From assembly GCA_003165335.1 (NCBI GenBank), contig PLTD01000185.1, positions 1 through 44,242 on the forward strand: a DNA stretch of 44,242 bases, given 5' to 3'. The stretch is from Rhodospirillales bacterium. GTDB taxonomy: Bacteria > Pseudomonadota > Alphaproteobacteria > BOG-932 > Roseiterribacteraceae. The translations under genes and the position numbers were made by a program. Under the pieces are notes generated by a model. That model made no database searches and was not told the origin of the DNA. It saw only the letters and a list, made by a program, of their open reading frames with translations. This document shows positions 4,585-35,170 of the stretch, one piece after another (the first letter of the stretch is position 1; each line of letters starts with the position of its first letter).

Positions 4585-6054
4585 ATGAGTTCAAAGACGT
4601 CCCGCTCCGGCCTTCTGAGCAACTACGATTCGGGTGATTATTATTGCGAGCTTTTGGGCTCGGATACGACGCCCCACTCTGTCTTTGATGTCATCGAGCG
4701 GCAACTCTCGACGATCTCGGAAAAAGAACTGCGCAATCGCGCTGTCGCCGCCGAGAACGACATGTTCGACCTCGGCGTCACCTTTACCGTCTATTCTGAG
4801 AAAAGCGCGATCGACCGGGTCTTCCCATTCGATCTGATACCGCGTGTCCTGTCCGCCAAGGAGTGGACGGAGATCGAGGCCGGGATCAAGCAGCGCGTTG
4901 CGGCCATCAACCTGTTTCTGGCCGATATCTACGGCCCGCAGCATGTGCTGAAGGATGGCATCATCCCCAGCCATCTGGTGTTCGGCAATTCCAATTTCCG
5001 CAAGGAAATGCAGGGCGTCAAAGTCACCAACGGCGTCTATGTCGCGATTTGCGGCATCGATATCGTCCGCGATCAGGCGGGCCGCTTCCTCGTGCTGGAG
5101 GACAATGCCCGCACACCGTCCGGCGTTTCCTATGTCATCGAGAATCGCCGGATGATGCTGCGTGCCTGGCCGGAATTGTTCGACGGTCTGGGTGTGCAGT
5201 CGGTTGATTCCTACGGTCCGCGTCTGCGCCAGGCTCTGGCGGAAAGCTCACCTGGCGGAACGAACGACCCGCATATCGTGCTGCTCACCCCCGGCACTTA
5301 CAATTCCGCCTATTTCGAACATGTGTTCCTGGCGCGCGAGATGGGAATCCCGCTTGTCGAAGGGCGCGACCTCACGGTCATCGACAGCCGAGTCTATTTG
5401 CGGACCATCGCCGGGCTTCGGCGCGTGGACACGATCTATCGCCGGATCGACGACGATTTTCTCGACCCGCGGGTTTTCCGAAAAGACAGTATTCTCGGCG
5501 TGCCGGGGCTGATGGAGGCCTATGTCGCAGGTAATGTTCAACTGGCCAACGGCGTCGGGACCGGTGTCGCGGACGACAAGGCGGTCTATGCCTATATGCC
5601 TAGGCTGATCCGCTATTACCTCAACCAGGAACCCATCCTGCCCAATGTCGACACGCATATTTGCGGCGAGCCTGAAGGGCTGGCATTCACGTTGGCCAAC
5701 CTGGAAAATCTGGTGGTCAAGCCGGTCGGCGCCTCGGGTGGATATGGGGTGATGATCGGGCCGCGTTCCAGTAGGGCGGAAATCGAAGAGACGCGGGCCA
5801 AGATTATCGAAGACCCCAGCAACTTCATTAGCCAGCCGGTTGTCGGATTGTCGGTCTGCCCGACTTTGTGCGACGACGGGATCGAGCCGCGGCATGTCGA
5901 TTTGCGACCTTTCGCCGTCACCGGTCGCGACACCTGGGTTCTGCCCGGCGGCCTCACCCGTGTCGCTCTGCGAAAAAATTCACTGGTCGTCAATTCGAGC
6001 CAGGGTGGCGGTTCCAAGGATACATGGGTCCTCTTTCCTGAGGCGGGTGAATAA
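4585..6054 (+). CDS. circularly permuted ATP-grasp protein
   Basis: A 489-residue member of the circularly permuted type 1 ATP-grasp family (older names DUF404/DUF407). Typical segments are GVTFTVYSEKSAIDRVFPFDLIPR, the DGIIPSHLVFGNSNFRKEMQG region, LVLEDNARTPSGVSYV, RRIDDDFLDP, and VVKPVGASGGYGVMIGP near the C-terminus. ATP-grasp enzymes ligate a carboxylate to an amine or thiol through an acyl phosphate; comparative genomics proposes a peptide-bond-forming role here, but no substrate is established. The stop and the start of the next gene share a base (TAATG), so it is coupled with the alpha-E gene. Confidence 0.9.
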   Translation: MSSKTSRSGLLSNYDSGDYYCELLGSDTTPHSVFDVIERQLSTISEKELRNRAVAAENDMFDLGVTFTVYSEKSAIDRVFPFDLIPRVLSAKEWTEIEAGIKQRVAAINLFLADIYGPQHVLKDGIIPSHLVFGNSNFRKEMQGVKVTNGVYVAICGIDIVRDQAGRFLVLEDNARTPSGVSYVIENRRMMLRAWPELFDGLGVQSVDSYGPRLRQALAESSPGGTNDPHIVLLTPGTYNSAYFEHVFLAREMGIPLVEGRDLTVIDSRVYLRTIAGLRRVDTIYRRIDDDFLDPRVFRKDSILGVPGLMEAYVAGNVQLANGVGTGVADDKAVYAYMPRLIRYYLNQEPILPNVDTHICGEPEGLAFTLANLENLVVKPVGASGGYGVMIGPRSSRAEIEETRAKIIEDPSNFISQPVVGLSVCPTLCDDGIEPRHVDLRPFAVTGRDTWVLPGGLTRVALRKNSLVVNSSQGGGSKDTWVLFPEAGE

Positions 6055-14640: not shown

Positions 14641-16084
14641 TCAACCGCTCGATGTCGATATGGCGGCTTAAGTGCGCCGCCAGGGCATCAAGAACCCGGT
14701 CGATTTCCGCCTCATAGCCGATATTTCCCGTGCTGCCGCCCAACCAGCCGATCCAGGCGGAACGTTGAAGGTCGTCGACGAACAGCCCATGCACATAGGT
14801 CCCGTGAATGCGCCCATCGGCCGAGACTGCCCCATCCATGCGGCCGTCGGCGAAACGCAGTAGCGGTCTTTCGCAGTCGGCACCGGCTGTCCGCCCCACA
14901 TGCATTTCATATCCGCGGAACGAAACGCCGTCGCCATTTGAGGTTCCGGTCACCTCGGTCAGGGTTTTGTCGCCGCTGAGTACGGTCTCGATATCCAAGA
15001 GGCCCAGACCCTCCGCACTGCCCGGCGGTCCTTCGATGCCCTCGGGATCAGCCACGATGCTGCCCAGCATCTGGTACCCGCCACAGAGTCCGAGAATTTT
15101 TCCGCCGCGCCGTGCATGGGCCTGAAGATCGATATCCCAGCCATTGCGCCGGAAATCGGCGAGATCGGCCAGAGTCGCCTTCGACCCCGGCAGGATCACA
15201 AGATCGGCATCGCCGGGCAGCGGTTCTCCCGGCTGAACCATGACCAGCCGCACCGACGGTTCCAGCTTAAGCGGGTCCAGATCGTCGAAATTGGCGATAT
15301 GCGCCAGGCGCGGGACAGCGATTGTGATCGCGCCGTCGCTGTCGGTGCCGCGTTTATCCAGCGCTACCGCATCTTCGGCCGGCAGCCATCCGGCCTCGCG
15401 GAAATAGGGGATCAGGCCCAGGGCCGGCCAGTCGGTATGGCCGGTGATGATGTCCATGCCGGCAGTGAACAGGGCCGGGTCGCCGCGGAATTTATTGACC
15501 AGAAATCCGGCGATCATCGCGCTGTCGGCCGGGTCGATGACGGTCTTGGTGCCGACGATTTGGGCGATCACCCCGCCACGGTCGATGTCGCCAATCAGGA
15601 TTACCGGCACATCCGCCGCGCGGGCGAAGCCCATATTGGCGATATCGTTCGCCCGCAGATTGACCTCAGCCGCGCTGCCGGCGCCCTCGACCAGCACGAT
15701 ATCGGCCTGATCTTTCAGCCGTACGAAGCTTTCGATGATTGTGGGCAGAAGCCCGGTCTTCATCCCCTGGAAATCGCGCGCCGTCGCATTGCCCACGACC
15801 TGGCCTAGGACCACGACCTGCGAGCCAATATCGCTTTGCGGCTTCAGCAGCACCGGGTTCATATCGACCGATGCCGGAATGCGGCATGCCCGCGCCTGCA
15901 ACGCCTGCGCCCGGCCGATCTCCCCGCCGTCGGCGGTGACTGCGGCGTTGTTCGACATATTCTGCGGCTTGAACGGCCGCACGGTCAGGCCGCGGTTGGT
16001 CAGCGCTCGGCACAGCCCGGCGACGATCAGCGACTTTCCGACGTCCGAGCCCGTACCCTGGAACATGAGCGCCTTGGCGGTCAA
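14624..16084 (-). CDS. cobQ: cobyric acid synthase
   Basis: Amidates four carboxylates (b, d, e, g) of adenosylcobyrinic acid a,c-diamide using glutamine and ATP. The 486-residue protein starts (M)[17 protein letters not shown] with the synthetase P-loop, continues with [14 protein letters not shown] and the DIADIDRGG-like [15 protein letters not shown], and ends with a class-I glutaminase domain: nucleophile in LCGGYQMLG and the histidine region HGTYVHGLF. The family start falls on a TTG at 16084 whose bases overlap the cobO stop (TTGA), so it is coupled to cobO; longer readings to 16423 would run antisense-style low-complexity Arg-rich residues. Confidence 0.93.
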
Positions 16085-16695
16085 AACTCGATCCCGACCT
16101 GGGCTTTCACCCCGGCAGCGAAATGATGCTTCACCAGCCCCATCTCGGTCACCAGATCGGCGATTTCGATCAACTCCGGCTTCGCGTTGCGCCCGGTCAC
16201 GACGATGTTGAGATCGGACCGCCGTTTGCCCAGCGCGCTCACAACCTCGTCCAGCGGCAGATAGTCGTAACGCAGTGCGATGTTGAGTTCGTCCAGCACC
16301 AGCAGCCGAATCGTCGGATCGTTCATCAGCTTGCATGCCATGTCCCAGGCCCGCGTGGCGGCGGCGATATCGCGTTGGCGGTCTTGCGTCTCCCAGGTGA
16401 AGCCCTCGCCCATCGTATGCCACTGGATCAGGTCCGAAAACCGCTCCAGCGCATGCTTTTCTCCGGTGTGCCAGGCACCCTTGACGAATTGTACGACGCC
16501 GACCGGCCAGCCGTGGCCCAGTGCGCGAAGGGCCAGGCCGAAGGCCGCCGTCGATTTGCCCTTGCCAGGCCCGGTGTTGACCATCAGCAGTCCCTTAGCC
16601 GTGATCGTCTTGGACGCGACTTCGGCATCCTGCACCTGCTTGCGCTTGGCCATCTTGGCCGCGTGGCGGCGATCTGCGTCAGTCGGTTCGGTCAT
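16081..16695 (-). CDS. cobO: corrinoid adenosyltransferase (CobO/BtuR type)
   Basis: Transfers the 5'-deoxyadenosyl group from ATP to Co(I) of cob(I)yrinic acid a,c-diamide or salvaged corrinoids. The 204-residue product has the CobA/CobO P-loop [14 protein letters not shown] (about 40-53), the [16 protein letters not shown] segment, [37 protein letters not shown] and the C-terminal [14 protein letters not shown] sits six bases before its ATG. It is followed by overlapping cobQ and lies third in the minus-strand unit headed by the B12 riboswitch. The order cobO-cobQ follows the order of the reactions. Confidence 0.95.
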
Positions 16696-16758
16696 GTCGC
16701 GTCCTGGACTTCGGTCGGTTCAAAGAACATGCAAACGTCCTGACGGGCAAGCTGGACG

Positions 16759-17178
16759 TCAGCCAGTCCACGCCGCTTGGTAGAACACGACACGATAGCC
16801 GTCGGGGTCTTCGAACGTCGCGCCGCCGCGATCCCAATAGGGATTGAAGGACGTGACGGGATCGAACCCGGCTTTGCGCATGCGCCCAACCGCTGCAGAC
16901 CATTCGGCGGCATCGGGCAAGTAGAAAACCAGTAGATTGTCCTGCGTCGGCGCGCACCCTGCATCATGTTCGTGCGCCCGGGTGAATTCGAAGTGATAGG
17001 GTGCGCCCGGACGTCCGAGCATCATCCCGTCGAAGCCTTCGTGGTCCTGGAAACGGTAAAGCAGGGTCAGGCCCAGACCCTGTCCGTAAAACTGCAGTAG
17101 GGCTTCAAGATCGTCGCTCGCTCGTGCGACGCGCAATGTCGGGAATCTGGATAGCGAAATGTCTTTTGTTGCACTCAT
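16759..17178 (-). CDS. VOC family (glyoxalase/bleomycin-resistance fold) protein
   Basis: A 139-residue vicinal-oxygen-chelate protein: FPTLRVARASDDLEALLQFYGQGLGLTLLYRF, GAPYHFEFTRAHEHDAG with a likely metal ligand His/Glu pattern, and the C-terminal GGATFEDPDGYRVVFYQ. Members may be isomerases, dioxygenases or drug-binding proteins; the sequence does not decide. It lies 22 bases after the TonB-dependent receptor stop and 63 bases before cobO, all on one strand, so it is probably under the same B12 riboswitch. Whether it has a corrinoid or metal-related job or merely rides along is unknown. Confidence 0.85.
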   Translation of the reverse strand: MSATKDISLSRFPTLRVARASDDLEALLQFYGQGLGLTLLYRFQDHEGFDGMMLGRPGAPYHFEFTRAHEHDAGCAPTQDNLLVFYLPDAAEWSAAVGRMRKAGFDPVTSFNPYWDRGGATFEDPDGYRVVFYQAAWTG

Positions 17179-17200
17179 GGTGCGAAGTCCATCGCTTGAC

Positions 17201-19378
17201 CTAAAGGTTCGCTGTTACCGTAAACCGCACGGAAAGCGGTTCCAGCGGATGGATTTGGTAGTCGTTGACACCAGCGGCGCCATATTTGGCGGCCTCGGCG
17301 ACATTGATATTGGTGGCGTAGTAGAACTCTGACGCATAGGCCTTCTGGTTGAACAGATTGAAGATCGCAACCTGCAGTTTCAACTTGTCAGTAAATCTAT
17401 ATCCGATATCGACGTTGGTTTCGCTATAGCCGCCGCCTCGCGGATTGGCCGGACCGTCCGCCAGCGGATAGGGACCGAGGATCCGCATCTCTGCGCCGCC
17501 GAACCAGGGAGCGAGATTGTCGATGATTGCGCCGAACGACAGCGTGAAGCTCGGGGCGTTGGCGATATAGGCGCCGCCCGCGATTTGATAGAAGTTCTGC
17601 AACGTCGCCTCGTTCTTGAAGAAGCGGGCCTTGGCGACTGCCACGTCTGTATTGAGCTCGAGCCAGTCGAAGGGATGATATTGAGCCGACAGCTCAAAAC
17701 CCTGGCGGCGGCTTGGCGCAGTCGCTTGATCTATGCCTGCGTCCTGGTCGTAGCTTTCCTCCGACCCGTAATCCTGCCTGAAAAGGGCAAGTTGTATCTG
17801 CAAGCCGCGGATCGAGGCGTTGCGAATGCCGAATTCCTCGCCATAGGTTCGAGCAAGCAGAGGCACGCGTCCGACCGAGAATGACACGCCCTGCACCGGA
17901 GCCGTGCCGAGGACGCCGCGAATGTCGTCAGAATGATAGCCCTTTCCGGCGCTGACATAGAACTCGGTATCGTACCAGGGCCCGATGGTCATGCTGCCTT
18001 TGGGCTGGAATAGAAATGCCTGGGACGAACCGTTGAAACCGGTAATCATGCTGCGATCGCTGGCGCCTGCATAATCCTCGCGTACGCCGATCGTCGTCCG
18101 CAGCCAATTCAGCCATCGTGTCGTATTCGACAGATAGGGCGCGATATCGTCGATATTCACCAGATCGGCCGTGCAGGCATGGAAGCCGATGGAATAGTCG
18201 CCCTCGCCGTCGTTGCAATAATCTAGGTCTACCCGCTGGCGCGTGTGACGGCGGTCGACATATTCGCTGTCATAACGTTCCTGTACGCCGAACGTCGTAT
18301 TGGAATCGATGTCGCCGAAGGTCAGGCTGCGGGTAAAGGCGACCGCGCCGCCGAAACTGTCTCGGGTTTCGTCCTGCTGTTCCTGATCGCCGTTCACCGG
18401 GTCGTTCAAAAAATGCGTGAAATCATTCCACAGCACCTGGGTGCTATGGACGGCATAGAGGTTGGCCGCCAGCTTCCAGTCGTCGCCGGTGACGTCGTAA
18501 TGGCCTGAAAGGCTCCAGCGGCTCGATTGCGCGCCATCGGTGGGGTCGAGCGTGCCGTAAAAGCCGATAAGTCCGCTCCGAATGGCGCGTAACGGCTGAT
18601 CCGTGGATAAGCGGCCTTGGCCTTTATAATACATCGCCGTGACGCTATAGCCATCGACGTCCGTGCCCTGGCTATAGCGGGTTGTCAGTCCGATTTTGCG
18701 GAAATTGTCGGGATGGGTATAGGGCCCGTCCACCCGGCTGACATCGGCTGCACCCAACAGCTTGCCGCCATTGTCGAAGTGCAAAGTCCCGCCCGCGAAG
18801 ATTTCGTCGTCGCCGAGAGTCCCCGCGCTCGCCGATATCTGATTCGGCAGATCGTTCAGCAGCCGCATATGCTCTGAACCCACCGAGCCGAAATCACCCA
18901 ACTCCGCGAAATACGGACCCTTGGTGAAATCCACACCGGCGAGGATCTGCGGAATCACGAAGTTCAGGTCGCAATAGCCCTGGCCATGCGCGTTGCTCGG
19001 CCGGTTGACCGGCATGTCGTCGACGAAATTGGCGAAATCGATTCCGTGGTCGAGATTCACGCCGCGTAGCAGATATTGATAGGCCTTCGCCTCGCCGGAA
19101 TGCACCGTCACGATCAATCCCGGCACGCTCTCCAGGAGTTGGCCGACACGATAGACCGGGCGCAGCTGGAGTTCTTCCTCGGTGACCGAGCCCTGGCTTG
19201 CGGTCTCCGCCTTTCCGATCAAGTTGGTGCGCGAGGACGTAACGACGATTTCTTCAAGCTTCGGTTTGTCGGCGGGTGCTGCAGAATCGGCTTCTATACC
19301 CGCGGCCTGGGCGATTGCCGATACAAGCAGAAAGACTGCAAATCCGATCGGAACGGGGACGATGAAACGGTAGGACAT
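17201..19378 (-). CDS. TonB-dependent outer-membrane receptor, B12-riboswitch controlled
   Basis: A 725-residue receptor that should bring a corrinoid or cobalt complex across the outer membrane at the expense of TonB energy. It has a signal peptide (MSYRFIVPVPIGFAVFLLVSAIAQAAG), a TonB-box-like KLEEIVVTSSR, a plug domain (RVGQLLESVPGLIV, YLLRGVNLDHGIDFANFVDDMPVN), and a beta-barrel ending in the aromatic-poor but typical RFTVTANL strand. The plug contains HGQGYCDLNFVIPQ, the mark of a receptor subgroup distinct from Escherichia coli BtuB. The only link to corrinoids is the riboswitch upstream and the cob genes downstream. The ATG at 19378 is set by the signal peptide. Confidence 0.88.
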   Translation of the reverse strand: MSYRFIVPVPIGFAVFLLVSAIAQAAGIEADSAAPADKPKLEEIVVTSSRTNLIGKAETASQGSVTEEELQLRPVYRVGQLLESVPGLIVTVHSGEAKAYQYLLRGVNLDHGIDFANFVDDMPVNRPSNAHGQGYCDLNFVIPQILAGVDFTKGPYFAELGDFGSVGSEHMRLLNDLPNQISASAGTLGDDEIFAGGTLHFDNGGKLLGAADVSRVDGPYTHPDNFRKIGLTTRYSQGTDVDGYSVTAMYYKGQGRLSTDQPLRAIRSGLIGFYGTLDPTDGAQSSRWSLSGHYDVTGDDWKLAANLYAVHSTQVLWNDFTHFLNDPVNGDQEQQDETRDSFGGAVAFTRSLTFGDIDSNTTFGVQERYDSEYVDRRHTRQRVDLDYCNDGEGDYSIGFHACTADLVNIDDIAPYLSNTTRWLNWLRTTIGVREDYAGASDRSMITGFNGSSQAFLFQPKGSMTIGPWYDTEFYVSAGKGYHSDDIRGVLGTAPVQGVSFSVGRVPLLARTYGEEFGIRNASIRGLQIQLALFRQDYGSEESYDQDAGIDQATAPSRRQGFELSAQYHPFDWLELNTDVAVAKARFFKNEATLQNFYQIAGGAYIANAPSFTLSFGAIIDNLAPWFGGAEMRILGPYPLADGPANPRGGGYSETNVDIGYRFTDKLKLQVAIFNLFNQKAYASEFYYATNINVAEAAKYGAAGVNDYQIHPLEPLSVRFTVTANL

Positions 19379-19399
19379 GTGCAATGGCCTCGCGGCTAC

Positions 19400-19411
19400 G
19401 TGACATGTCAC
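19400..19411. promoter_or_regulatory. 12-bp perfect palindrome in the receptor leader
   Basis: GTGACATGTCAC is a perfect 12-base palindrome lying 22 bases before the receptor start codon and about 100 bases after the riboswitch core. It could be a protein operator or a small RNA hairpin (GTGA/TCAC with a CATG loop) near the ribosome-binding region. No regulator can be named from sequence. Confidence 0.3.
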
Positions 19412-19504
19412 CACGAACCAAAGCCCGTCCGCCGCCTGCACCCAAGCAAGCTGCGATCGTTCCCCATCGGTGCACCCCGCCCAATGTGTCCGTGCATGAC
19501 CACG

Positions 19505-19675
19505 ACCGACGGCAGGTCTCCTGGCTCGCGGGTCACGGCCTTGCATCGCCTTCCCGGTTCCCCAGTGGCTGAATGATGTTCGGCTCGCCGCTTACAGTTG
19601 CGGGGGCAGCCGCGGCATTGGGGGTGCCCCGTACCGCGTTCCCTTTTGATCCCCAGAGGGAACCGTCACGCTCAG
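19505..19675 (-). promoter_or_regulatory. cobalamin riboswitch (receptor side)
   Basis: On the minus strand the leader carries the conserved core GCTGCCCCCGCAACTGTAAG, a following GCGGCGAGCC, the CCACTGG element, and the B12 box AGCCAGGAGACCTGCC (19511-19526). The spacing is that of a complete class-I cobalamin aptamer. It is oriented toward the TonB-dependent receptor 130 bases downstream and should lower expression of receptor, VOC gene, cobO and cobQ when adenosylcobalamin is plentiful. I could not identify the expression platform with certainty. Confidence 0.93.
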
Positions 19676-19701
19676 GCTATACACAAATTGCAATGCGTCA
19701 A
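19676..19701 (-). promoter_or_regulatory. possible promoter of the minus-strand riboswitch transcript
   Basis: On the minus strand TTGACG (19701-19696) is followed at a 14-16 base spacing by TATAGC/TAGCCT just before the riboswitch begins. The match is suggestive only, and alphaproteobacterial promoters are loosely conserved. Confidence 0.35.
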
Positions 19702-19732
19702 TCCAGATGCCCTAGCTGCCACTTCACGAAAG

Positions 19733-19761
19733 TTGACAGCATGGCACGTGTAGCCGCAAAC
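19733..19761 (+). promoter_or_regulatory. possible promoter of the plus-strand riboswitch transcript
   Basis: A perfect TTGACA (19733-19738) lies about 30 bases before the plus-strand riboswitch. The -10 position 17 bases on (GCAAAC) is poor, so only the -35 is convincing. The two riboswitches share about 90 bases that must hold both promoters back to back. Confidence 0.35.
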
Positions 19762-19767
19762 AAGGCG

Positions 19768-19972
19768 CTGGTCCGAAGGTCCCTCCGACAAGAGGGTGAA
19801 ACGGGAATACGGACGGCGCGGGGAAACCCGGGCCGGGACCGAGCTGCCCCCGCAACTGTGTGTGGTTAGCCGAACGCCGAATTTGCCACTGGAGCGCGAC
19901 TTGCGTCGAATTCCGGGAAGGCGGCGCCAGGCCGTGATCCACAAGCCAGGAAACCGGCCGGCGGACCAGATC
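19768..19972 (+). promoter_or_regulatory. cobalamin riboswitch (cobW-cobN side)
   Basis: A second, separate B12 aptamer on the plus strand. It has the core GAGCTGCCCCCGCAACTGTG, TTAGCCGAACGCCGAATTTG, the CCACTGG element and the B12 box AAGCCAGGAAACCGGCC (about 19943-19959). It differs from the minus-strand copy in most variable stems, so it is not a recent duplicate of it. About 100 bases follow before cobW, including a GGGGTGCCCC hairpin that could belong to the expression platform. It should repress the long cobW-cobN-cobG-cobH-cobI-cobJ transcript when cobalamin is plentiful. Confidence 0.93.
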
Positions 19973-20072
19973 TGACGCGACGGGCGGGGTGCCCCGACGT
20001 GGTTCGGTGTCGCCAATTCTCAGGCGCACCCGGATTCGGCCGGCATTGCACCCAAGCTCGAGAGGTTTTGGC

Positions 20073-21107
20073 ATGCAGGCAATGGCGAAAATTCCGGTCA
20101 CCATCGTTACCGGCTTCCTGGGGTCGGGTAAAACCACGCTTATCCGCCATGTGCTAGAGAATGCGCGCGGCCGCAGGCTTGCCCTCATTATCAATGAATT
20201 CGGCGACGTCGGTGTCGATGGCGCGATTCTCAAATCCTGTGGCATCGATACCTGCCCTGAGGAAAATATCGTTGAACTCGCCAACGGATGCCTCTGCTGT
20301 ACAGTGGCCGACGATTTCATCCCGGCGATCGAGGCGTTGCTGGCTCGCGTACCGCAGCCCGAGCATATTGTGATCGAGACATCGGGGTTGGCCCTGCCGA
20401 AGCCGCTGGTCAAGGCTTTCGATTGGCCGGGCATCCGAACCCGCGTCACCGTCGACGGGGTCATCGCCGTTGTCGACGGCGCGGCCGTGGCCGACGGCCG
20501 TTTCGCCGACGACCCGGTCAAGCTGGCGGCTCAGCGCGCTGCCGACAGTTCTATCGACCATGAAAACCCGCTGGAGGAAGTCTATGAGGACCAACTGCTG
20601 TGCGCCGATTTGGTGGTGCTGAACAAGGCCGACCTGATGACGCCCGAGGGGATGAAGCGCGTAGCCGCCGAAATCCAGGCAACCGTGCCGCGGGCGGTCA
20701 AAATCGTTGAAACCCGTGAGGGCCGTATCGACCCGGCAATACTTTTGGGACTGGGCGCCGCGGCGGAGGACGACCTGGCGGCGCGTCCCTCCCACCACGA
20801 CGCGGAGGAGGGGCACGATCACGACGATTTCGAAAGTTTCGTGGTCGATATCGCCGCCACCGCTGATCCCGCCGCGCTGTTGACCCATCTGGCCTCGATT
20901 GCCGAGCGGTTCGACGTGCTGCGCATGAAAGGCTTCATTGAGGTCGCGGGCAAGCCGATGCGCCTTTTGGTCCAGGGTGTCGGCCAGCGCTTCCGCCAGC
21001 AATTCGATCGGCCCTGGGCTTTGGGTGAGGATCGGCGGGGCCGCTTGGTCGTCATCGGCGAAAAGGGCCTTGATCGCGCGGCCATCGTCGCGGCGCTGGG
21101 GGGCTGA
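20073..21107 (+). CDS. cobW: CobW GTP-dependent metallochaperone
   Basis: A 344-residue G3E-family GTPase. It shows the P-loop GFLGSGKTTL (14-23), the metal site NGCLCC (about 71-76), switch region VIETSGLALPKPLV, base-recognition LNKADL, and a His/Asp-rich loop (HHDAEEGHDHDDFE) before the CobW C-terminal domain. CobW is thought to load cobalt for corrin chelation by the CobN-containing chelatase; being first gene after the riboswitch and just before cobN supports cobalt over zinc. ATG 20073 has AGAGG seven bases ahead. Confidence 0.93.
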   Translation: MQAMAKIPVTIVTGFLGSGKTTLIRHVLENARGRRLALIINEFGDVGVDGAILKSCGIDTCPEENIVELANGCLCCTVADDFIPAIEALLARVPQPEHIVIETSGLALPKPLVKAFDWPGIRTRVTVDGVIAVVDGAAVADGRFADDPVKLAAQRAADSSIDHENPLEEVYEDQLLCADLVVLNKADLMTPEGMKRVAAEIQATVPRAVKIVETREGRIDPAILLGLGAAAEDDLAARPSHHDAEEGHDHDDFESFVVDIAATADPAALLTHLASIAERFDVLRMKGFIEVAGKPMRLLVQGVGQRFRQQFDRPWALGEDRRGRLVVIGEKGLDRAAIVAALGG

Positions 21108-21117
21108 GGCTCGACCG

Positions 21118-24100
21118 ATGCATATGCTGCGCGTCGAATCCCGGTCGATCGATGGCACGGCGGAGGCCGTCGACCTCGATCAGACGCCGGCCGATATCGT
21201 TGCGCTGTCCTTCACCGACACGGATCTTTCCGTTTTATCTGCCGCCTGGGAGGCACATCGAGAAGCGCTTCCCAGTCTGCGCCTCGCCAATCTGACGTCG
21301 TTGCGCCATCCCTTCTCAGTCGATCTCCATCTCGAGAAAGTCGTCGCCAAGGCGCGTTTCGTGCTGGTGCGGCTGCTGGGCGGAAAGGATTACTGGCGCT
21401 ATGGCGTCGATGAGTTGGCGGCGCTCTGCCGCGCCCGCGGCATCCATCTCGCGATAATCCCGGGTGATCACCGCGAGGATGCTCGGCTGGACGAAGCCTC
21501 GACACTGCCGATCGAAACCCTGCGGCAGATCTGGTCCTATTTTTCGTCAGGTGGCGCGGAGAATATCGGCGCCTGTCTCAATTTTGCCGCCGGTCACTTT
21601 TATGATCGGCCCCCTGCGCCGGCGCCAATCGAGGTGCAATCGTTCGGTGTTTTCGAGGCGGCGCAGCAGTCTAATCCGCATGCACACTCAGCGCTCATCG
21701 TTTTCTATCGCGCCTGGATGCTCGCCGCGGACACTGCCCCGGTCACTGCCCTGGCGGACGCCTTGGCGGCCCGAGATTTCAAGGTCACTTCGGTCTATGT
21801 CACCAGCCTGAAGGATACTGCGACGATCGCGCCTCTGGCAGATCTGATCAAGACTGAAAAGCTAGACGTTATCCTCAATCTGACGGCCTTTTCTGCCGGC
21901 CTCGATGGTGGCGGGTCTGTGCTCGACCTGGCTGATGTCCCGGTTTTTCAGCTGGTGCTCAGTGGCGGGGGGCGGCAACAATGGGCCGATTCCCAGCGCG
22001 GGCTTGGCCCTGCCGATCTCGCGATGAATATCGTTCTGCCCGAATTCGACGGGCGCATCATCGCCGGTGCGATCTCCTTCAAGGGCGAGGCGGGGCGCAG
22101 CGAGGCTCTGGAATTCACCCGGTTGGTTCACCAACCTGAAGCGGGCGGCATCGCCCATGCTGCCGATCTTGCGCTCAGTTGGGCTAGGCTACGCGGCACG
22201 CCCCGCGCCGAACGGCGGCTGGCCTGTATCCTGTCGGACTATCCTGCCAAGGGCGGTCGTACCGGATATGCGGTCGGGCTGGATACCCCGCGCAGCGTCG
22301 TCGCGATTGCGGACCGGCTGAGGCGGGAAGGTTACGACATCGATTTGCCGGATGACGAGGCGGCGCTCGTCGCGGCGCTATCGACCGGGGAAACGACCAC
22401 AGTCCTCGGCGTCGACGCGTATCGGCGATTACTGGCCGAACTGCCAGCCGAATTCATCGCGCAGGTCGATGCCGCCTGGGGTGCGCCGCCAGACGACGCA
22501 TCCGCTCGGGACGGCGCCTTCCATTTCCGTATCGTGCGTGCCGGCAATCTGCTGGTCGCAGTCCAGCCGGATCGCGGCGATGTCGGATCGCGCAAGCCCG
22601 ACTATCACAGCCCGCTGCTGCCGCCCCGCCACGGCTATGTCGCCTTTTACTTGTGGCTGCGGTCGGTCGAGAGCGTTCACGCTGTCATCCATTGCGGCAC
22701 TCATGGGACGCTGGAATGGCTGCCGGGCAAGGCGGCGGCCCTGTCCGAAAGCTGCGCTCCGCGCGCGGTATTAGGACCGGTGCCGCTGATCTATCCCTTC
22801 ATTGTCAATAATCCGGGCGAGGCCGCCCAGGCAAAGCGGCGCGCCGCCGCCGTCACCATCGGGCATCTGACGCCACCCTTGACAATGGCCGGTTCTCACG
22901 GTGTCGCATCCGAATTGGAGGGGCTTTTCGACGAATATTCCGAGGCCCAGTCGCTTGACCCGCGGCGTGCTGCGCGTTTGGCCGAACTGATCATGGCCCG
23001 TGCCCATGACACCGGCCTGGCGGCCGAATCGGGCATCGCGCCGGACACAGAGGTCGCCGAAGCGCTGATCAAGCTCGACGCCTGGCTGTGCGATCTCAAG
23101 GACATGCGTGTCGGCGACGGTCTGCATGTTTTTGGGACCGCTCCCGATGCGGAGCGCCGACGTGAAACCGCAGCCTCTCTCGCCGCGGTCAGCGGGGCAG
23201 GCGATACCGGCGTAATCGAGCAACTGCTCGACGATTGCGGCGAGGCCGAGATACGGGGGCTGCTGACCGCGCTCGATGGCGCATTCGTGCCGCCGGGTCC
23301 TGCAGGTGCGCCTGCGCGGGGGCGCACGGATGTACTGCCCACTGGGCGCAATCTGTTCAGCATCGACCCACGCGCCGTACCCACACGTACGGCTTGGGAA
23401 ATTGGCAGACGTACAGCCGAGGAACTGCTGACTCGCCACGTACAGGATCAAGGCGAATGGCCTCGACGCATCGTGCTCGACATCTGGGGCAGTTCTACGA
23501 TGCGCACCGGCGGCGACGACCTGGCGCAGGCCTTCGCCTTGTTGGGCGTGCGGCCGCGCTGGGACGCCGGATCCAACCGGGTAGCAGGATTCGACATATT
23601 GCCGCTGGCTGCGGTGGGCCGCCCGCGCGTCGATGTGACACTGCGAATATCCGGTCTGTTTCGTGACGTCTTCCCCGGCCAGATCGTGTTGTTCGACGCT
23701 GCGGCTCGTGCAGTCGCGGCGCTGGAAGAATCGACGGAAGACAATCCTTTGGCCGCCAGCGTGCGGGACGACGGCGATGCAGGACGGCGGGTCTTCGGCA
23801 CTGCTCCGGGGCAATATGGCGTTGGTGTCTCACGCCTGCTCAATTCCGGAGATTGGCAGGAGCGGACCGCATTGGGCGTGGCCTATCTCGACGCGACCTC
23901 GCACGCCTATGGTCATGATGCCGAGGGCGTCCCCGCCGCGCCCGACTTTCGCGATAGGGTCGCCGGGGCCGACGCCTTTGTCCATGTACAGGATCTAGCG
24001 GATCAGGATGTGCTCGGCGCCGATGCTTTCGCCGAACATGAGGGCGGTTTTGCCGCCGCCGCAGCGTCGCTGGGCAGCAATCCCGCGCTCTACCATGCCG

Positions 24101-24483
24101 ATACGACCGCGCCGGATGTCTCCAAAATCCGCACGCTGCGCGAGGAAGTGGCGCGGGTGCTGCGGGCGCGGGCGACGAACCCGCGCTGGCTGGCCGGCCA
24201 GATGCGCCATGGCTATCGCGGTGCGGCTGAGATCGCCGAATCCGTCGATAATTTCTTCGCCTATGCCGCTTTGACCGACGTAACGGCGAACCGCCAGTTC
24301 GACCTGCTGTTCGACGCCACTCTGGGGGATGAGAGCGTCCGAGCCTTCCTGGCCGACGCCAATTTCGCTGCCGCTCGCGGCATGGCCGACAAGTTCGATG
24401 AGGCGATCCGCCGGGGTTTGTGGACAACGCGCCGCAACTCGGTCGCGCCGATCCTGGCAGGTCTCAAGGATGCGGCAGAGTGA
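21118..24483 (+). CDS. cobN: cobaltochelatase subunit CobN
   Basis: The large subunit of the ATP-dependent cobalt chelatase that inserts cobalt into hydrogenobyrinic acid a,c-diamide. The 1121-residue protein starts MHMLRVESRSIDG and carries family regions such as ARFVLVRLLGGKDYWRYGVDEL, YHSPLLPPRHGYVAFYLWLR, IHCGTHGTLEWLPGKAAALS, RIVLDIWGSSTMRTGGDD and ARGMADKFDEAIRRGLW. It is somewhat shorter than the roughly 1275-residue P. denitrificans enzyme, but both ends look complete. The partner AAA+/VWA subunits CobS and CobT are not in the window and must be encoded elsewhere. It begins ten bases after cobW and overlaps cobG. Confidence 0.95.
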   Translation: MHMLRVESRSIDGTAEAVDLDQTPADIVALSFTDTDLSVLSAAWEAHREALPSLRLANLTSLRHPFSVDLHLEKVVAKARFVLVRLLGGKDYWRYGVDELAALCRARGIHLAIIPGDHREDARLDEASTLPIETLRQIWSYFSSGGAENIGACLNFAAGHFYDRPPAPAPIEVQSFGVFEAAQQSNPHAHSALIVFYRAWMLAADTAPVTALADALAARDFKVTSVYVTSLKDTATIAPLADLIKTEKLDVILNLTAFSAGLDGGGSVLDLADVPVFQLVLSGGGRQQWADSQRGLGPADLAMNIVLPEFDGRIIAGAISFKGEAGRSEALEFTRLVHQPEAGGIAHAADLALSWARLRGTPRAERRLACILSDYPAKGGRTGYAVGLDTPRSVVAIADRLRREGYDIDLPDDEAALVAALSTGETTTVLGVDAYRRLLAELPAEFIAQVDAAWGAPPDDASARDGAFHFRIVRAGNLLVAVQPDRGDVGSRKPDYHSPLLPPRHGYVAFYLWLRSVESVHAVIHCGTHGTLEWLPGKAAALSESCAPRAVLGPVPLIYPFIVNNPGEAAQAKRRAAAVTIGHLTPPLTMAGSHGVASELEGLFDEYSEAQSLDPRRAARLAELIMARAHDTGLAAESGIAPDTEVAEALIKLDAWLCDLKDMRVGDGLHVFGTAPDAERRRETAASLAAVSGAGDTGVIEQLLDDCGEAEIRGLLTALDGAFVPPGPAGAPARGRTDVLPTGRNLFSIDPRAVPTRTAWEIGRRTAEELLTRHVQDQGEWPRRIVLDIWGSSTMRTGGDDLAQAFALLGVRPRWDAGSNRVAGFDILPLAAVGRPRVDVTLRISGLFRDVFPGQIVLFDAAARAVAALEESTEDNPLAASVRDDGDAGRRVFGTAPGQYGVGVSRLLNSGDWQERTALGVAYLDATSHAYGHDAEGVPAAPDFRDRVAGADAFVHVQDLADQDVLGADAFAEHEGGFAAAAASLGSNPALYHADTTAPDVSKIRTLREEVARVLRARATNPRWLAGQMRHGYRGAAEIAESVDNFFAYAALTDVTANRQFDLLFDATLGDESVRAFLADANFAAARGMADKFDEAIRRGLWTTRRNSVAPILAGLKDAAE

Positions 24484-27087: not shown

Positions 27088-27845
27088 CCGGAAGCCTATT
27101 CGTTGTCGGTCTGGGGCCCGGTCCGGCCTGCTGGATCGCGCCGGAGGCAATGGAAGCGCTGAATGCGGCCAGCGATATCGTCGGCTATCAGCCCTATATC
27201 GACCGCATCCCCGAACGCGCCGGACAACTTCGTCATGGCAGCGACAATCGCGTCGAACTGGATCGCGCGCAGCATGCCTTGGCAATGGCGACCGAAGGGC
27301 GGCGGGTTGCAGTTGTGTCGGGCGGCGATCCCGGCGTGTTCGCTATGGCAGCGGCGGTGTTCGAGGCGATCGAATCTGGCGACCCCACTTGGCGAAGTCT
27401 CGATGTCACGGTCATTCCCGGCATCTCGGCCATGCAAGCTGCGGCCTCCAGGCTGGGTGCCCCATTGGGCCATGATTTCTGCGCGATTTCCCTGTCGGAC
27501 AATCTGAAGCCCTGGTCCATTGTGGAGCGCCGATTGCGAGCCGCAGCCGATGGTGACTTCGTGATAGCGCTCTACAACCCCGCCTCTAAGGCCCGGCCCG
27601 ACCGAATTCATCAGGCCTTTGGGCTACTGCGGGATTGCAAATCTGAGAGCACGCCTGTCGCTTTTGCCAGGGCGATTGGCCGGGATGACGAGCGGATCGT
27701 GCTGACGACTTTGGGCGGGGCGGAACCCGGCCTTGCCGATATGAGTACTCTGGTCATGATCGGATCGAGCGAAACACGCTTCATCGATCGCCCCGGCAGA
27801 ACCCCCTGGATGCTGACGCCCCGAAGCTATGGGGCGGGTCGATGA
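27084..27845 (+). CDS. cobJ: precorrin-3B C17-methyltransferase
   Basis: Methylates C17 and performs ring contraction to precorrin-4. A 253-residue protein of the tetrapyrrole methyltransferase fold, opening VVGLGPGPACWIAPEAMEAL, with DIVGYQPYIDRI, VVSGGDPGVFAMAAAVFEAI, VIPGISAMQAAASRLGAPLGHDF and IALYNPASKARP, all characteristic of CobJ/CbiH. GTG start overlapping cobI. Its 3' end overlaps the tail of cobK on the opposite strand by 19 bases. Confidence 0.95.
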   Translation: MTGSLFVVGLGPGPACWIAPEAMEALNAASDIVGYQPYIDRIPERAGQLRHGSDNRVELDRAQHALAMATEGRRVAVVSGGDPGVFAMAAAVFEAIESGDPTWRSLDVTVIPGISAMQAAASRLGAPLGHDFCAISLSDNLKPWSIVERRLRAAADGDFVIALYNPASKARPDRIHQAFGLLRDCKSESTPVAFARAIGRDDERIVLTTLGGAEPGLADMSTLVMIGSSETRFIDRPGRTPWMLTPRSYGAGR

Positions 27846-28573
27846 CCCAAAATCCAGCTCATGACATCGTCCAATTTCTCGAAGGCCAGAACCTCCTCGG
27901 GTTTCGGACGCTCGACCATGATCACGTCGATGCCAAGTTGGCGTGCGGCAGCCAGCTTGGCGGCCGTTGCTTTCCCGCCGCTGTTTTTGGTCACCAGCAC
28001 TTCGATGCGCGCGCCACGCATCAATGCGACTTCATCCTCGGCGGAAAATGGACCGCGTGCGAGAATCAGCTTGTGGTCCGACAGAGCCGCGGCGGCTTGC
28101 GGCGGGTCGATGGTGCGCACGAGATAATGATGCTGAGGCGCGGCGGCGAAGGCGGCAAGTTGCAGCCCGCCCACGGTCAGGAACACACGACGTGCTTTGA
28201 TGCCCAATGCGCTTGCGGCTTCGCTCATATCGGAAACCGAGAACCAGCGGTCGCCGGGAACCGGGCGCCAGGCCGCGCGCGTAAACAGCGCAAGCGGCAG
28301 ATTCAGGTCTCGGCAGGCATCGGCGGCATGGGCCGACATCTGCGCGGCAAAGGGGTGCGTGGCGTCGACCACCACATCGATCTTATTGTCCGTCAAATAG
28401 GCTTTCAACCCATCGACGCCGCCGAATCCGCCTGTGCGGAACGGAATGGGCGATTCGGCCGGATTCTGCGTCCGGCCGGCGAGCGACAGGATCGGCTCCA
28501 ACTCGGCCCAGCCCACCACTTGGCGGGCCAGAGCGTTCGCCTCGGTCGTGCCGCCCAGAATCAAAAGTCGCAT
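27827..28573 (-). CDS. cobK: precorrin-6A reductase
   Basis: NADPH-dependent reduction of precorrin-6A to 6B. The 248-residue product has the start LLILGGTTEANALARQV with the GGTxEA motif, VVDATHPFAAQMSAHA, RKVFLTVGG-like RRVFLTVGGLQLAAF and VTKNSGGKATAAKLAAAR, all typical of CobK/CbiJ. It is the only gene reversed inside the otherwise plus-strand run cobW-cobM: its end overlaps cobJ and its start lies 26 bases from the divergent cobL start. Confidence 0.94.
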   Translation of the reverse strand: MRLLILGGTTEANALARQVVGWAELEPILSLAGRTQNPAESPIPFRTGGFGGVDGLKAYLTDNKIDVVVDATHPFAAQMSAHAADACRDLNLPLALFTRAAWRPVPGDRWFSVSDMSEAASALGIKARRVFLTVGGLQLAAFAAAPQHHYLVRTIDPPQAAAALSDHKLILARGPFSAEDEVALMRGARIEVLVTKNSGGKATAAKLAAARQLGIDVIMVERPKPEEVLAFEKLDDVMSWILGHRPAP

Positions 28574-30206: not shown

Positions 30207-30976
30207 CGGTCCATTTCATCGGTGCGGGACCGGGTGCGCCCGATCTCATTACCGTGCGCGGACGCGATCTTATCGCTCGCTGTCCTGTCTGCCTTTTTGC
30301 CGGGTCGCTGGTGCCGGCAGCGCTGCTGACCTATTGCCCGCCCGAGGCGCGGATCGTCGATACCGCGCCGCTGTCGCTCGACGAAATCGCGGCTGAATTC
30401 CTGCGCGCCAACGAAGATGGCCATGATGTTGCCCGCCTCCACTCCGGCGATCTGTCGGTCTGGAGCGCGATGGGTGAGCAGCTTCGACGTCTCGATCGGC
30501 TAGGCATCCCCTATAGTGTCACGCCCGGCGTGCCGTCATTTGCGGCCGCTGCGGCGGCCCTGTCTCAAGAACTGACCCTGCCCGGCGTTGCGCAATCGCT
30601 GGTGCTGACCCGGACCAGCGGCCGGGCGTCGGCCATGCCGGAACGCGAGAAATTGGCAAGTTTTGCTGCGACCGGCGCGACGCTCGCAATCCATCTGTCG
30701 ATCCATGTTTTGGAGACTGTGATGGCCGAACTCATCCCGCATTACGGCGCCGATTGCCCCGTGGCCATCGTTTATCGCGCTTCATGGCCGGATCAGCAGG
30801 TGATCCGGGGTACTTTGTCGACTATCGGCGAAAAACTGTCCCGGGCGCCGGTCGAACGCACCGCTTTGATCCTGGTCGGGCCTGTGCTTGGTTCGGATGA
30901 TTTTCGCGAAAGCGCGCTTTATGATCCCGACTATCTGCGCCGCTTTCGTCCCGACCGCTCGTTGGGGGATCAATGA
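30203..30976 (+). CDS. cobM: precorrin-4 C11-methyltransferase
   Basis: Methylates C11 of precorrin-4, giving precorrin-5. A 257-residue tetrapyrrole methyltransferase: [78 protein letters not shown] and [15 protein letters not shown], all CobM/CbiF hallmarks. It overlaps cobE (ATGA) and its tail overlaps the convergent cbiD by seven bases. Confidence 0.96.
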
Positions 30977-32073
30977 GCCTCCAAAAACCCCGTTCGCCCC
31001 AGAAGCGCGCCCGTTCGATCGAAAATGACTATCTCCAGCGCCATATCGCCGCCTTCCAGCGCCCGCGCCGCGGTCTGCCACGCCGCCATGGCCACTGCGG
31101 ACGCCAGGTCTATTCCGGCGTGCGCGGCATGATCGAAAGCCTCCATTGCGGAATTGCTTCCCGCGACCCGCGCCGCCAGGTCGGCGTCGCCGCCCGATTC
31201 CAGCGTGCGTTCGCCGAGCCAGTTCAGATCGACCTCGCCCCGACGGGAATGGAGGTCGAGCAGCCCTTGGCCAAGCTTGGTCATCTTCGCCATGCCTCCG
31301 GCCACGGTGATGCGCGCGACCGGATAGCGGCGCAGATATTTCAGCATGCCTCCGGCAAAATCGCCCATGTCGATCAGCGCCGCGTCAGGCAGGCCATACA
31401 GTTTGGCGACAGCAGCCTCGGACGTGGATCCGGTGGCGCCTGCGACATGGGTAATTCCGGCTGCGCGCGCGACATCGATCCCGCGATATATCGAATGAAT
31501 CCAGGCCGAACAGGAATAGGGCACCACGATGCCCGTGGTCCCCAATATCGACAGGCCTCCCAGGATGCCCAGGCGCGCGTTCAACGTCCGCTCGGCGATC
31601 TTCTCGCCGCCGGGAACGGAAATCTCGACGATGACGTCGCCGCTGCCGCTATACTCGGCGGCGACTTCGGCGATGGCGGTGCGGATCATCTCGCGCGGCA
31701 TCGGATTGATTGCGGGTTCACCCGGCGGAACTGGCAAACCGGCCAAGGTGACCGTTCCGACACCCTCTCCTGCGCGAAAGGCAACGCCGCTGCCGGACGC
31801 GCCCAACCGTACGGTCGCGACGATCAGTGCGCCGTGAGTCACATCGGGGTCATCTCCGGCGTCCTTCACGATGCCGGCGCGCGCGAATCCATCGCCGCGC
31901 TCATTGACCGCCAAGGCGAAGGACGGGCGCAAGCCTGCGGGCAATTGTACCGGGACCGGGTCGGGAAATTGCCCGGTCAGCAAAGCCTGATAAGCCGCGC
32001 GGCTGGCGGCGGCGGCGCAGGCCCCCGTGGTCCAGCCCCGGCGCAGCGGACGGGTAAGATCGGGCTTCTCCAT
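30970..32073 (-). CDS. cbiD: precorrin-5 C1-methyltransferase of the CbiD family
   Basis: CbiD methylates C1 of (cobalt-)precorrin-5B; in the classical anaerobic route it replaces the aerobic CobF. The 367-residue protein opens [26 protein letters not shown], with the TTGxCAAAA motif, and has the FSVPGG-like [34 protein letters not shown] and [16 protein letters not shown]-like segments of CbiD. Placed among oxygen-dependent genes, it most likely supplies the missing C1-methylation. ATG 32073 is chosen over 32166, which would add 31 untypical residues. It is divergent from cobA with 56 bases between. Confidence 0.92.
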
Positions 32074-32129
32074 GGCGTAATGTCCTATCGGACGGGGAGG
32101 CTCCTGCCTAGCTCCCCGGAGGCTGCACC

Positions 32130-32945
32130 ATGACAGGGTCGACGCTTCATGCGGCGCTGGGCGCATTTCGCCTGCCGATGTTCAATCCGGGTGAGGTCTG
32201 GCTGTCGGGCGCCGGCCCCGGTGATCCCGGCCTATTGACCCTCCATGCGGTCAATGCTCTGGGCCAGGCCGATATCATCCTTTACGACGCCCTGGTTCAT
32301 GAGGCGGTTTTGGGGCTGGCCCGGCCGCAGGCTTCGTTGGAATTTGCCGGGAAGCGCGGCGGCCGACCGTCGCCCAGCCAGCGCGACATTACCGAACGGC
32401 TGATCGAGCTGGCCCGCGAAGGCCATCGGGTTCTGCGGCTAAAGGGAGGCGATCCCTTCGTTTTCGGCCGTGGCGGGGAGGAGGCTCTGGGCCTTGTTGC
32501 TGCCGGCATTCCGTTCCGAGTCATTCCCGGCATCACTGCCGGTCTGGCGGGGCTGGCCTACGCCAATATTCCGGCGACCACCCGCGATACCAACCACGGC
32601 GTCATCCTTGTTACCGGCCAATATGCGGCGGGCAATAAACGGGGCCTCGACTGGGGTGCGGTCGCCAAGACCAAGCTTCCGATTATTCTCTACATGGGGA
32701 TGAGCCGCCTGCCCGAGATATCCGCCGCCTTGCTGGCCAGCGGCGTATCGCCCGAACTGCCAGTTGCGATCGTCAATAACGCAACGACGCCCCAACAGCG
32801 TGTCTTCGTCTCGACTTTGGGCAAAGTCGGCGTGGATGCCGCGGTTCTGGGGTTCGGCGCGCCGTCCATCGTCGCGATCGGTGAAATGGTCAGGCTGCGG
32901 GAGGCGCTGTCGCCATTCGCCATCACGCTGACGGGCGAAGGCTGA
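32130..32945 (+). CDS. cobA: uroporphyrinogen-III C-methyltransferase
   Basis: Methylates uroporphyrinogen III at C2 and C7 to precorrin-2, the first committed step. The 271-residue protein has WLSGAGPGDPGLLTLHAVNAL, DIILYDALVHEAVL, RVLRLKGGDPFVFGRGGEEAL, VIPGITAGLAGLAYANIPATTRD and the C-terminal APSIVAIGEMVRL. It is the stand-alone SUMT, without the CysG dehydrogenase/ferrochelatase domain. A GGAGG at 32118-32122 supports the ATG at 32130, giving an N-terminal extension of about 20 residues over the shortest members. Confidence 0.94.
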   Translation: MTGSTLHAALGAFRLPMFNPGEVWLSGAGPGDPGLLTLHAVNALGQADIILYDALVHEAVLGLARPQASLEFAGKRGGRPSPSQRDITERLIELAREGHRVLRLKGGDPFVFGRGGEEALGLVAAGIPFRVIPGITAGLAGLAYANIPATTRDTNHGVILVTGQYAAGNKRGLDWGAVAKTKLPIILYMGMSRLPEISAALLASGVSPELPVAIVNNATTPQQRVFVSTLGKVGVDAAVLGFGAPSIVAIGEMVRLREALSPFAITLTGEG

Positions 32946-34258: not shown

Positions 34259-34899
34259 CCAATAGCGCACCCAGTTTCGACGCCGAATTCCGCGGCTGGC
34301 TCGAAACGCTGATCGCCTGGCGGCGCGACGTGCGCCGGTTCAGCGTGCGGCCGGTTCCACCTGATGTGATCGACCATTTGCTCGATGTCGCTCAACTTGC
34401 CCCGTCGGTCGGCAACAGCCAGCCCTGGCGGTGGGTCCGCGTTGAAAGCCCGGGAAAGCGCGCTGAGATCCGGGCGAATTTTCTCGATTGCAACGATAAA
34501 GCCCGTCAGGCGCAACCGGACAGACGGGCGGACGCCTATGCCGCGCTGAAGCTGGCGGGGATCGACCGTGCGCCGGTGCAATTCGCGATTTTCTGCGACC
34601 GGGAAACCGGCCAGGGTCATGGATTGGGCCGTCTGACCATGCCGGAAATGCTGGAATATTCGGTGGTCGGCATGATCACCAATTTCTGGCTGACGGCGCG
34701 CGCCGCTGGACTGGGCGTCGGCTGGCTGTCGATCCTCGAACCGGCCCGTGTCGCCGCCGATTTGGCAGTGCCGCCGTCCTGGAATTTCGTCGCCTATTTA
34801 TGCGTCGGCTGGCCGGAAGAGGAACATCTCGACCCCGAACTCGAACGCTATGGTTGGCAGGACCGCAGCGACGCGGGGCGGAAGGTCAAAATCGTATGA
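34255..34899 (+). CDS. bluB: 5,6-dimethylbenzimidazole synthase
   Basis: An oxygen-dependent flavin destructase that cleaves FMNH2 into 5,6-dimethylbenzimidazole, the lower ligand of cobalamin. The 214-residue nitroreductase-fold protein has RRDVRRFSVRPVPPDVIDHLL, LAPSVGNSQPWRWVRV, and GRLTMPEMLEYSVVGMITNFWLTARAAGLGVGWLSIL, matching BluB rather than ordinary nitroreductases. It overlaps cobB (ATGA). Its presence shows that the cell can make true B12 without imported lower ligand. Confidence 0.95.
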   Translation: MTNSAPSFDAEFRGWLETLIAWRRDVRRFSVRPVPPDVIDHLLDVAQLAPSVGNSQPWRWVRVESPGKRAEIRANFLDCNDKARQAQPDRRADAYAALKLAGIDRAPVQFAIFCDRETGQGHGLGRLTMPEMLEYSVVGMITNFWLTARAAGLGVGWLSILEPARVAADLAVPPSWNFVAYLCVGWPEEEHLDPELERYGWQDRSDAGRKVKIV

Positions 34900-34990
34900 A
34901 GCGTTTGGCCTATTCGTCGTCAGGGGCTATTATAGATTGTACAATTCGTATTTCGTTGAGGGCCAAGGAGACAGGCCCGGGGAGCATGAG

Positions 34991-35164
34991 ATGACAGCGG
35001 TTGCAATTCCGGTCGTCCGGGGGAAAAGCGAGGCTCTGAAGGCAGCGTTCGTCGCACTTACGCTTGGCGCGACGCTGGTTTTCCTGACCGGTTTTTCGCA
35101 TATCGATAAGGTTCATAACGCCGCGCACGATACGCGCCATGCGATGAGCTTTCCCTGCCACTGA
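34991..35164 (+). CDS. cbtB: CbtB cobalt transporter subunit
   Basis: A 57-residue single-span membrane protein of the CbtB family. After a short cytoplasmic head there is one hydrophobic helix (AAFVALTLGATLVFLTGFSHI) and a histidine-rich tail, VHNAAHDTRHAMSFPCH, which is the family mark and a likely metal site. GGGGAG lies six bases before the ATG at 34991. The 90-base leader has a small GGGCC/GGCCC hairpin with AAGGAG in its loop (34960-34978) but no B12 aptamer. It is seven bases from cbtA. Confidence 0.9.
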   Translation: MTAVAIPVVRGKSEALKAAFVALTLGATLVFLTGFSHIDKVHNAAHDTRHAMSFPCH

Positions 35165-35170
35165 CCCGAC

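Follow-up and report, generated by a model that had tools for sequence, protein, structure and literature searches.

The 44,242-nucleotide stretch of contig PLTD01000185.1 analysed here (the window), from a Rhodospirillales bacterium, encodes two class-I cobalamin riboswitches that stand back to back between the two arms of a cobalamin locus. The CobW relatives place the organism among the Alphaproteobacteria, close to Rhodopila and other Rhodospirillales. The pair is real and correctly placed; all its parts belong to known kinds, and what is uncommon is how they are arranged. Our preferred reading, to which we give a probability of roughly 0.7, is that both are ordinary class-I translational switches, of which the one before cobW (the plus riboswitch) was inherited and the one before a TonB-dependent receptor gene (the minus riboswitch) arrived with an uptake cassette that was inserted between cobO and cobW.

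Both aptamers were recognised by the RF00174 covariance model, for which the gathering score is 31.5 bits. The minus riboswitch (19494–19682, minus strand) scores 125.5 bits (E 3e-31) and the plus riboswitch (19760–19976, plus strand) 98.1 bits (E 2e-23). The two matches are full length, covering model positions 1–189, and their scores lie far beyond chance. The initial annotation had claimed two complete cobalamin aptamers on opposite strands and had named the cobalamin covariance model as a way to check them; the claim holds, and neither aptamer fails the model. The promoter space shared by the two had been put at about 90 bases. The 5′ ends do face each other, and 77 bp separate one model edge from the other. 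The aptamers had also been called unlike, which agrees with their identity of 75% over 185 aligned positions, and each of them does head, in divergent orientation, a set of B12-related genes. No cobalamin riboswitch besides this pair was found in the 5.19-Mb genome among the 150 of 289 first-look candidates that were scored. A search for a third riboswitch before cbtB (window 34700–35200) returned only two chance-level matches, to unrelated families (E up to 5). The cbtB-cbtA genes of the window have no recognisable riboswitch of their own, unlike those of the related locus L038, described below.

The first gene of the minus arm encodes a TonB-dependent receptor of 725 aa with a Pfam Plug domain (17201–19378, minus strand). 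Against the NCBIfam model of the BtuB equivalog, TIGR01779, it reaches 28.3 bits, below the cut-off of 599.7 bits, and by this curated cut-off its product is assignable only as a TonB-dependent receptor and not as BtuB. On the same strand follow the gene of a VOC/YycE-like protein (16759–17178; PF22658, PF22659 and PF00903), the corrinoid adenosyltransferase gene cobO (16081–16695) and the cobyric acid synthase gene cobQ (14624 to about 16066, the start taken from match and translation), the last two named by NCBIfam. The plus arm begins with cobW (20073–21107, plus strand; TIGR02475, 564.1 bits) and the cobaltochelatase subunit gene cobN (21118–24483, plus strand; a family match with an approximate start), followed in order by cobG, cobH, cobI, cobJ, cobL, a CbiG-like gene, cobM, cobA, cobB and bluB, and then by cbtB, cbtA, a DUF1636 gene, a DBI_PRT gene (cobT) and cobS. 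The gene names given initially are upheld by these family matches, save that the receptor misses the BtuB cut-off. Genes cobK, cbiD and cobU (window 27827–28573, 30970–32166 and 36754–37329) are located on the minus strand, antisense within the plus-strand cob cluster, with ends that overlap or nearly abut neighbouring genes. Because these three genes are antisense inside the cluster, the cob genes downstream of cobJ do not make up one simple operon. The content ascribed to the two arms is thus to be qualified in the plus arm by the antisense genes, and in the minus arm by the sequence upstream of cobO, which is common to a sister genome. Relatives of the receptor at E 1e-40 or better are present in 15 of the 385 genomes of the class, its own genome included. 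A cobalamin riboswitch precedes the receptor homologue at two of 14 loci (L188–L200 and L140, the latter starting at a contig edge with its upstream region unreadable), namely in genomes G373 (63% identical) and G323 (41%). The VOC gene has a full-length match, in ten genomes searched, in its own genome only, with a short partial match in G004.

The letters of both leaders indicate that they can form the L5–L13 kissing loop. L5, assigned by reading, is CCCCC in both (19602–19606 in the minus leader, 19847–19851 in the plus leader). The P13/L13 hairpin, with its pairing drawn by eye, is CAUUGGGC[GGGGU]GC(A)CCGAUG in the minus leader (19465–19486, minus strand) and GGGC[GGGGU]GCCC in the plus leader (19982–19994, plus strand). 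Complementarity of L5 and L13, read from sequence only, extends over five contiguous positions in the minus leader and six in the plus leader. The minus P13 contains a single bulged base; with changed pairs, the hairpin can also be traced by eye in the leader of L037, a locus of the same genus, and in two leaders of G323. The plus P13 has the same letters in seven of eight aligned cobW leaders, the remaining one (L036) carrying a single G-C to G-U change. According to PMC10653944, the L5–L13 kissing loop is necessary for regulation in published work, and the complementarity in both leaders fits that mechanism. In the minus leader, a predicted hairpin (19386–19425, minus strand) holds the Shine-Dalgarno sequence GAGG (19388–19391) in its 3′ arm, and this sequence is only partly paired in the predicted ensemble, with unpaired probabilities of 0.02–0.46 in the window and 0.16–0.35 in L037. 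The 5′ arm of the same hairpin, a 19-nt block at 19407–19425, is identical in L037, although the genes downstream are unrelated. Searched as a motif, the block has six sites in five of the 385 genomes. Two of the four sites outside the genus follow a riboswitch (L210 and L212, both in G323); the other two (L209 and L211) are without one and look like chance occurrences in coding sequence, and we rejected the block as a widespread motif.

In the plus leader, GCACCC (20048–20053, plus strand) is complementary to L13 and is a candidate antisequester partner. The complementarity of the window is reached by 9.8% of 500 shuffles, and over the nine rows compared the shuffle fraction ranges from 0.012 to 0.514 (0.098 for the window), which makes an antisequester role of the GCACCC-type stretch before the Shine-Dalgarno sequence suggestive only. 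The Shine-Dalgarno-like GAGAGG of cobW (20060–20065, plus strand) lies 7 nt before the ATG at 20073, in a region that showed no conservation among the aligned plus leaders of relatives. Promoter-like elements were picked out by eye and include a −35-like TTGACA in the plus leader (19733–19738, plus strand), seen in relatives as well, and a −35-like TTGACG in the minus leader (19696–19701, minus strand), present in L037 too. The minus leader also has a −10-like TATAGC (19676–19681, minus strand), separated from TTGACG by a spacer of only 14. A strict sigma-70 promoter scan of 19300–20150 yielded no site, and a terminator scan of the same region yielded none in the interval that leads from each aptamer to the gene it heads. 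One terminator-like site (19620–19643, plus strand), antisense to the minus aptamer, is at chance level, since shuffles average 0.9 such sites, and was set aside.

The translation start of the first gene would be the most direct target of each switch because the interval between aptamer and gene is without a terminator-like site, and translational repression by AdoCbl appears to be the likeliest mode for both leaders. In the mechanism that we propose, binding of AdoCbl would stabilise the kissing loop between L5 (CCCCC) and L13 (GGGGU), P13 would form, the Shine-Dalgarno sequence would be hidden and translation of the first gene would be repressed. For both switches we infer the ligand, the direction of control and the translational mode from these features. 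For the minus switch the probable target is receptor translation, and the VOC gene may follow the receptor by coupling. That it governs cobO-cobQ is doubtful, since the upstream segment 16711–16752 is common to L032, the corresponding locus of a same-genus genome, and these two genes may still start independently. The initial annotation had the two switches controlling both arms of the locus; such control is likely for the gene that opens each arm and only possible for those behind it, cobO having kept the upstream stretch that it shares with L032.

The origin of the pair is suggested by a comparison with L032 itself, from genome G002. This locus has no minus riboswitch, and its cobO is about 100 bp from the cobW riboswitch. 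The half of its spacer next to cobO aligns to window 16711–16752 with a score of 40, where 1000 shuffles reach at most 29, and the half next to cobW aligns to window 19722–19758 with a score of 38, where 1000 shuffles reach at most 31. In L032 these halves are separated by 4 bp, in the window by 2,969 bp. By this local alignment, the 42 bp at 16711–16752 (minus strand) in the VOC–cobO gap appear to be inherited cobO upstream sequence, and the 2,969 bp at 16753–19721, with the VOC gene, the TonB receptor gene and the minus riboswitch, constitute an apparent insertion, the flanks of which are contiguous in L032. A blastn search of window 16760–19500 against L032 gave no match. The GC content of the apparent insertion is 0.590 versus 0.619 in the rest of the window, a weak sign only, and a search for flanking repeats or a target-site duplication around it found only short, chance-like repeats. 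The pair thus appears to be the product of insertion of a receptor–VOC cassette since the split from L032, and we infer insertion rather than loss. The polarity rests mainly on this one sister genome. The spacer of L035, which is of similar length, has no collinear alignment to that of L032, and the older spacer sequence is for this reason not confirmed by a third genome. Among the 44 of 80 cobW loci at which cobO is divergent from cobW within the stretch examined, the spacer is shorter than 300 bp in 28 and at least 300 bp in 16. On the preferred reading, the plus riboswitch would be the inherited cobW switch of the lineage, the uptake cassette, made up of the receptor and VOC genes, would have entered the short divergent spacer between cobO and cobW together with the minus switch, and the back-to-back pair would be the result of that insertion. 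Abundant cobalamin would then turn down both first genes at the same time.

Tight divergent pairs were found in three of the 385 genomes of the class, namely this genome, G001 and G084, versus no tight pairs among the matches listed for the reversed control pattern in the same 385 genomes. The scan looked for exact 11-base cores 206–266 bp apart and misses wider or diverged pairs, for example, the compact element of L038. The riboswitch search around relatives covered 40 of the 80 cobW loci (80 of 243 confirmed), from 39 genomes, with 48 or 49 candidates scored per genome; another search of relatives scored at most six candidates per genome, with part of the matches listed. Locus L037 (genome G001, same genus) has a full divergent pair at the same place. 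Its minus leader heads the gene of a NicO-family transporter (2278–3354; Pfam NicO, PF03824, 345.9 bits, over gathering), which abuts cobO. Locus L038 has, divergent beside its cobW switch, a compact cobalamin match that falls short of the gathering score (5430–5504, minus strand; 28.7 versus 31.5 bits) and precedes a CbtB-like frame, recognised by eye, and then CbtA (266.7 bits), with cobO behind. At L034, the cobW switch faces away from a divergent NiCoT gene, with no minus-strand match among those listed for its genome, and in L083 a minus-strand pattern match is found about 2.5 kb from the cobW switch. The genes for cobalt or B12 acquisition in the cobO–cobW spacer thus differ across relatives, being those of the receptor and the VOC protein, of the NicO transporter or of CbtA. 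The pair in G084, a genome of another family, is a divergent RF00174 pair of 109.3 and 117.3 bits (L201, C15:127500–138500). On contig C210 of G043 (L115/L034), a stretch of about 7 kb carries three cobalamin riboswitches, all on the same strand, which precede cobW, a gene recognised by eye as CbiM-like and one gene without a name; the btuB and cbiM labels of the reference genes in L115–L129 were assigned by eye.

Phylogenetic analysis of the aptamers indicates that the plus riboswitch is the inherited cobW switch and that the minus riboswitch is of a different lineage. In two trees, the plus aptamer is placed within a nine-row cobW group (support 100/100 and 100/99) and the minus aptamer outside it. 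In the tree to which G323 rows were added, and from which the long-branched row cbtA_L131 was left out, the minus aptamer is joined to two G323 receptor leaders with support 94/86. The closest aptamer to the plus one is that of L032 (91% identity), and the closest to the minus one are those of a G323 leader (84%) and L037 (83%). A local inverted duplication, by which one riboswitch would have been copied from the other, accords with two adjacent aptamers of the same class; however, it would have to accommodate an identity of only 75%, nearest relatives that are all in other genomes and trees in which the two aptamers are separated, and we regard it as scarcely credible. The expression platform of the minus leader is similar to those of L037 (score 83; maximum of 200 shuffles, 31) and G323 (61; maximum of 200 shuffles, 32), and that of G373 gives 36 versus a shuffle maximum of 35. 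The riboswitch of G373, located before the closest receptor homologue, groups with x_L115b at 99/94. Since this leader is of another lineage and its platform is barely above shuffles, a receptor need not move with its leader, which speaks against a simple travelling unit. NiCoT leaders were considered as a source of the minus leader and rejected, the platforms of Rhodopila L113 and L114 scoring 26 and 24 versus shuffle maxima of 38 and 41. In G323, the near-alike leaders of L210 and L212, grouped at 100/99, precede two different TonB-receptor-like genes, which suggests copying of the leader.

The similarity of the minus leaders of the window and L037, in both aptamer and platform and at the same place, could also mean that the pair is ancestral in the genus, that L032 deleted the cassette and that L037 has another gene behind the same inherited leader. 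Such a history is in our view unlikely, for it conflicts with the position of L032, which groups with the window (cobW aptamers at 93/72 and 96/79) and has a CobW 92% identical to that of the window versus 85% for L037. Moreover, the L032 spacer is contiguous with both halves matching, so a deletion would need near-exact restoration, and the inter-riboswitch spacers of L037 and the window share only a 9-nt match, which is reached by 73 of 1000 shuffles. The minus aptamers of L037 and the window are not grouped in either tree, a point against the preferred reading, although both trees are poorly resolved in that region. Given that the closer partner of the window is L032, not L037, the two full pairs seem to have arisen separately, a shared origin with loss in L032 being the less likely history.

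A different matter is whether the two switches read the same signal. The initial annotation had taken the differing variable stems as a hint that the two may have unequal ligand thresholds, or may favour AdoCbl over MeCbl or hydroxocobalamin to a different degree, so that uptake and synthesis would be turned off at different B12 levels. The stems do not carry this argument: those that differ are mostly peripheral, and stem differences do not predict ligand preference because, in PMC9600662, the determinants of corrinoid selectivity are dispersed over the aptamer, and the 38 switches tested there were semiselective and promiscuous only. One difference at the pocket junction does exist, in J6/3, which is AGA in the minus aptamer (19517–19519) and AAA in the plus aptamer (19951–19953). 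In the review PMC7689651 (section 34), J6/3 touches the adenosyl group at the pocket in solved structures and its placing decides the adenosyl fit. The L4 arm of the plus aptamer also departs from the Rfam consensus, by a T-loop/L4 reading made by eye. The kin of the plus aptamer depart from AGA as well, J6/3 being AAA in the cobW switches of L032, L035 and L037 and AUA in those of L033, L034, L036, L038 and L040. Set against this, both aptamers are class I by the model. AGA, the Rfam consensus (usual, not defining), is found in 128 of the 151 readable aptamers (157 tallied, six unreadable, with at least the L040 and L132 rows representing one locus). The 23 others comprise 14 of 73 aptamers with cobW as first gene, 6 of 61 with another named first gene and 3 of the 17 whose first gene has no name. 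Each first gene took its label from the closest tblastn match, which places the cobW locus L053 under cbtA. For the 134 aptamers with a named first gene, Fisher's test gives p 0.15, with rows that are not independent, and a link between J6/3 and gene function is not supported; J6/3 appears to follow lineage, with no clear link to function. The AGA/AAA difference gives a modest sequence reason to look for a differing preference, and staged control of uptake and synthesis seems to us quite improbable. We hold it a long shot that the pair is a two-tier sensor, in which the J6/3-changed, L4-rebuilt cobW switch would read another cobalamin form or level than the incoming AGA-type switch. Were that so, insertion of the cassette would have given separate set-points to uptake and synthesis from one 480-bp spacer. 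With unlike J6/3 junctions in adjacent switches of the same cell, corrinoid selectivity is a directly testable question.

With ordinary switches and an inserted cassette as the preferred reading, the window offers a clear example of the way in which biosynthetic genes may acquire a regulated uptake module as neighbour. A gene that arrives with its own metabolite sensor would come under the same signal at once, without a new transcription factor. Since the relatives have different acquisition genes in the cobO–cobW spacer, twice behind full riboswitches with similar leaders, this spacer amounts to a natural experiment that asks which of the two, leader or gene, is retained by selection. We found no description of a divergent cobalamin riboswitch pair in the literature searched, a scope outside which subscription papers mostly fall, and make no claim that it is unpublished; the word 'divergent' is absent from PMC2211319.

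Like the class-I RF00174 switches of Escherichia coli btuB and P. megaterium metE, both riboswitches of the window have a full aptamer, L5–L13 complementarity and B12-related genes downstream. Unlike these, the plus riboswitch has AAA in J6/3 and a long L4 arm, and two copies stand in divergent orientation, 77 bp apart. The plus riboswitch is one of the alphaproteobacterial cobW-operon riboswitches, for which a core is present on the cobW strand in 77 of the 80 loci by a loose pattern. By contrast, a second divergent core close to cobW is found, by the same kind of pattern, at only one of the 80 loci (L037). The G084 pair likewise consists of two full RF00174 matches on opposite strands, but its genes differ: one arm encodes a periplasmic binding protein and a TonB receptor with Pfam matches to barrel and Plug, and the other has DUF4198 and CbiM/CbiQ/ABC genes. 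Earlier work, as cited in PMC545781, suggested that cobalt transporter types are interchangeable. The relatives of the window resemble that case in that a receptor, a NicO transporter or CbtA fills one slot, and differ from it in that the exchange takes place at a single place beside cobW and, in two cases, behind a similar riboswitch leader.
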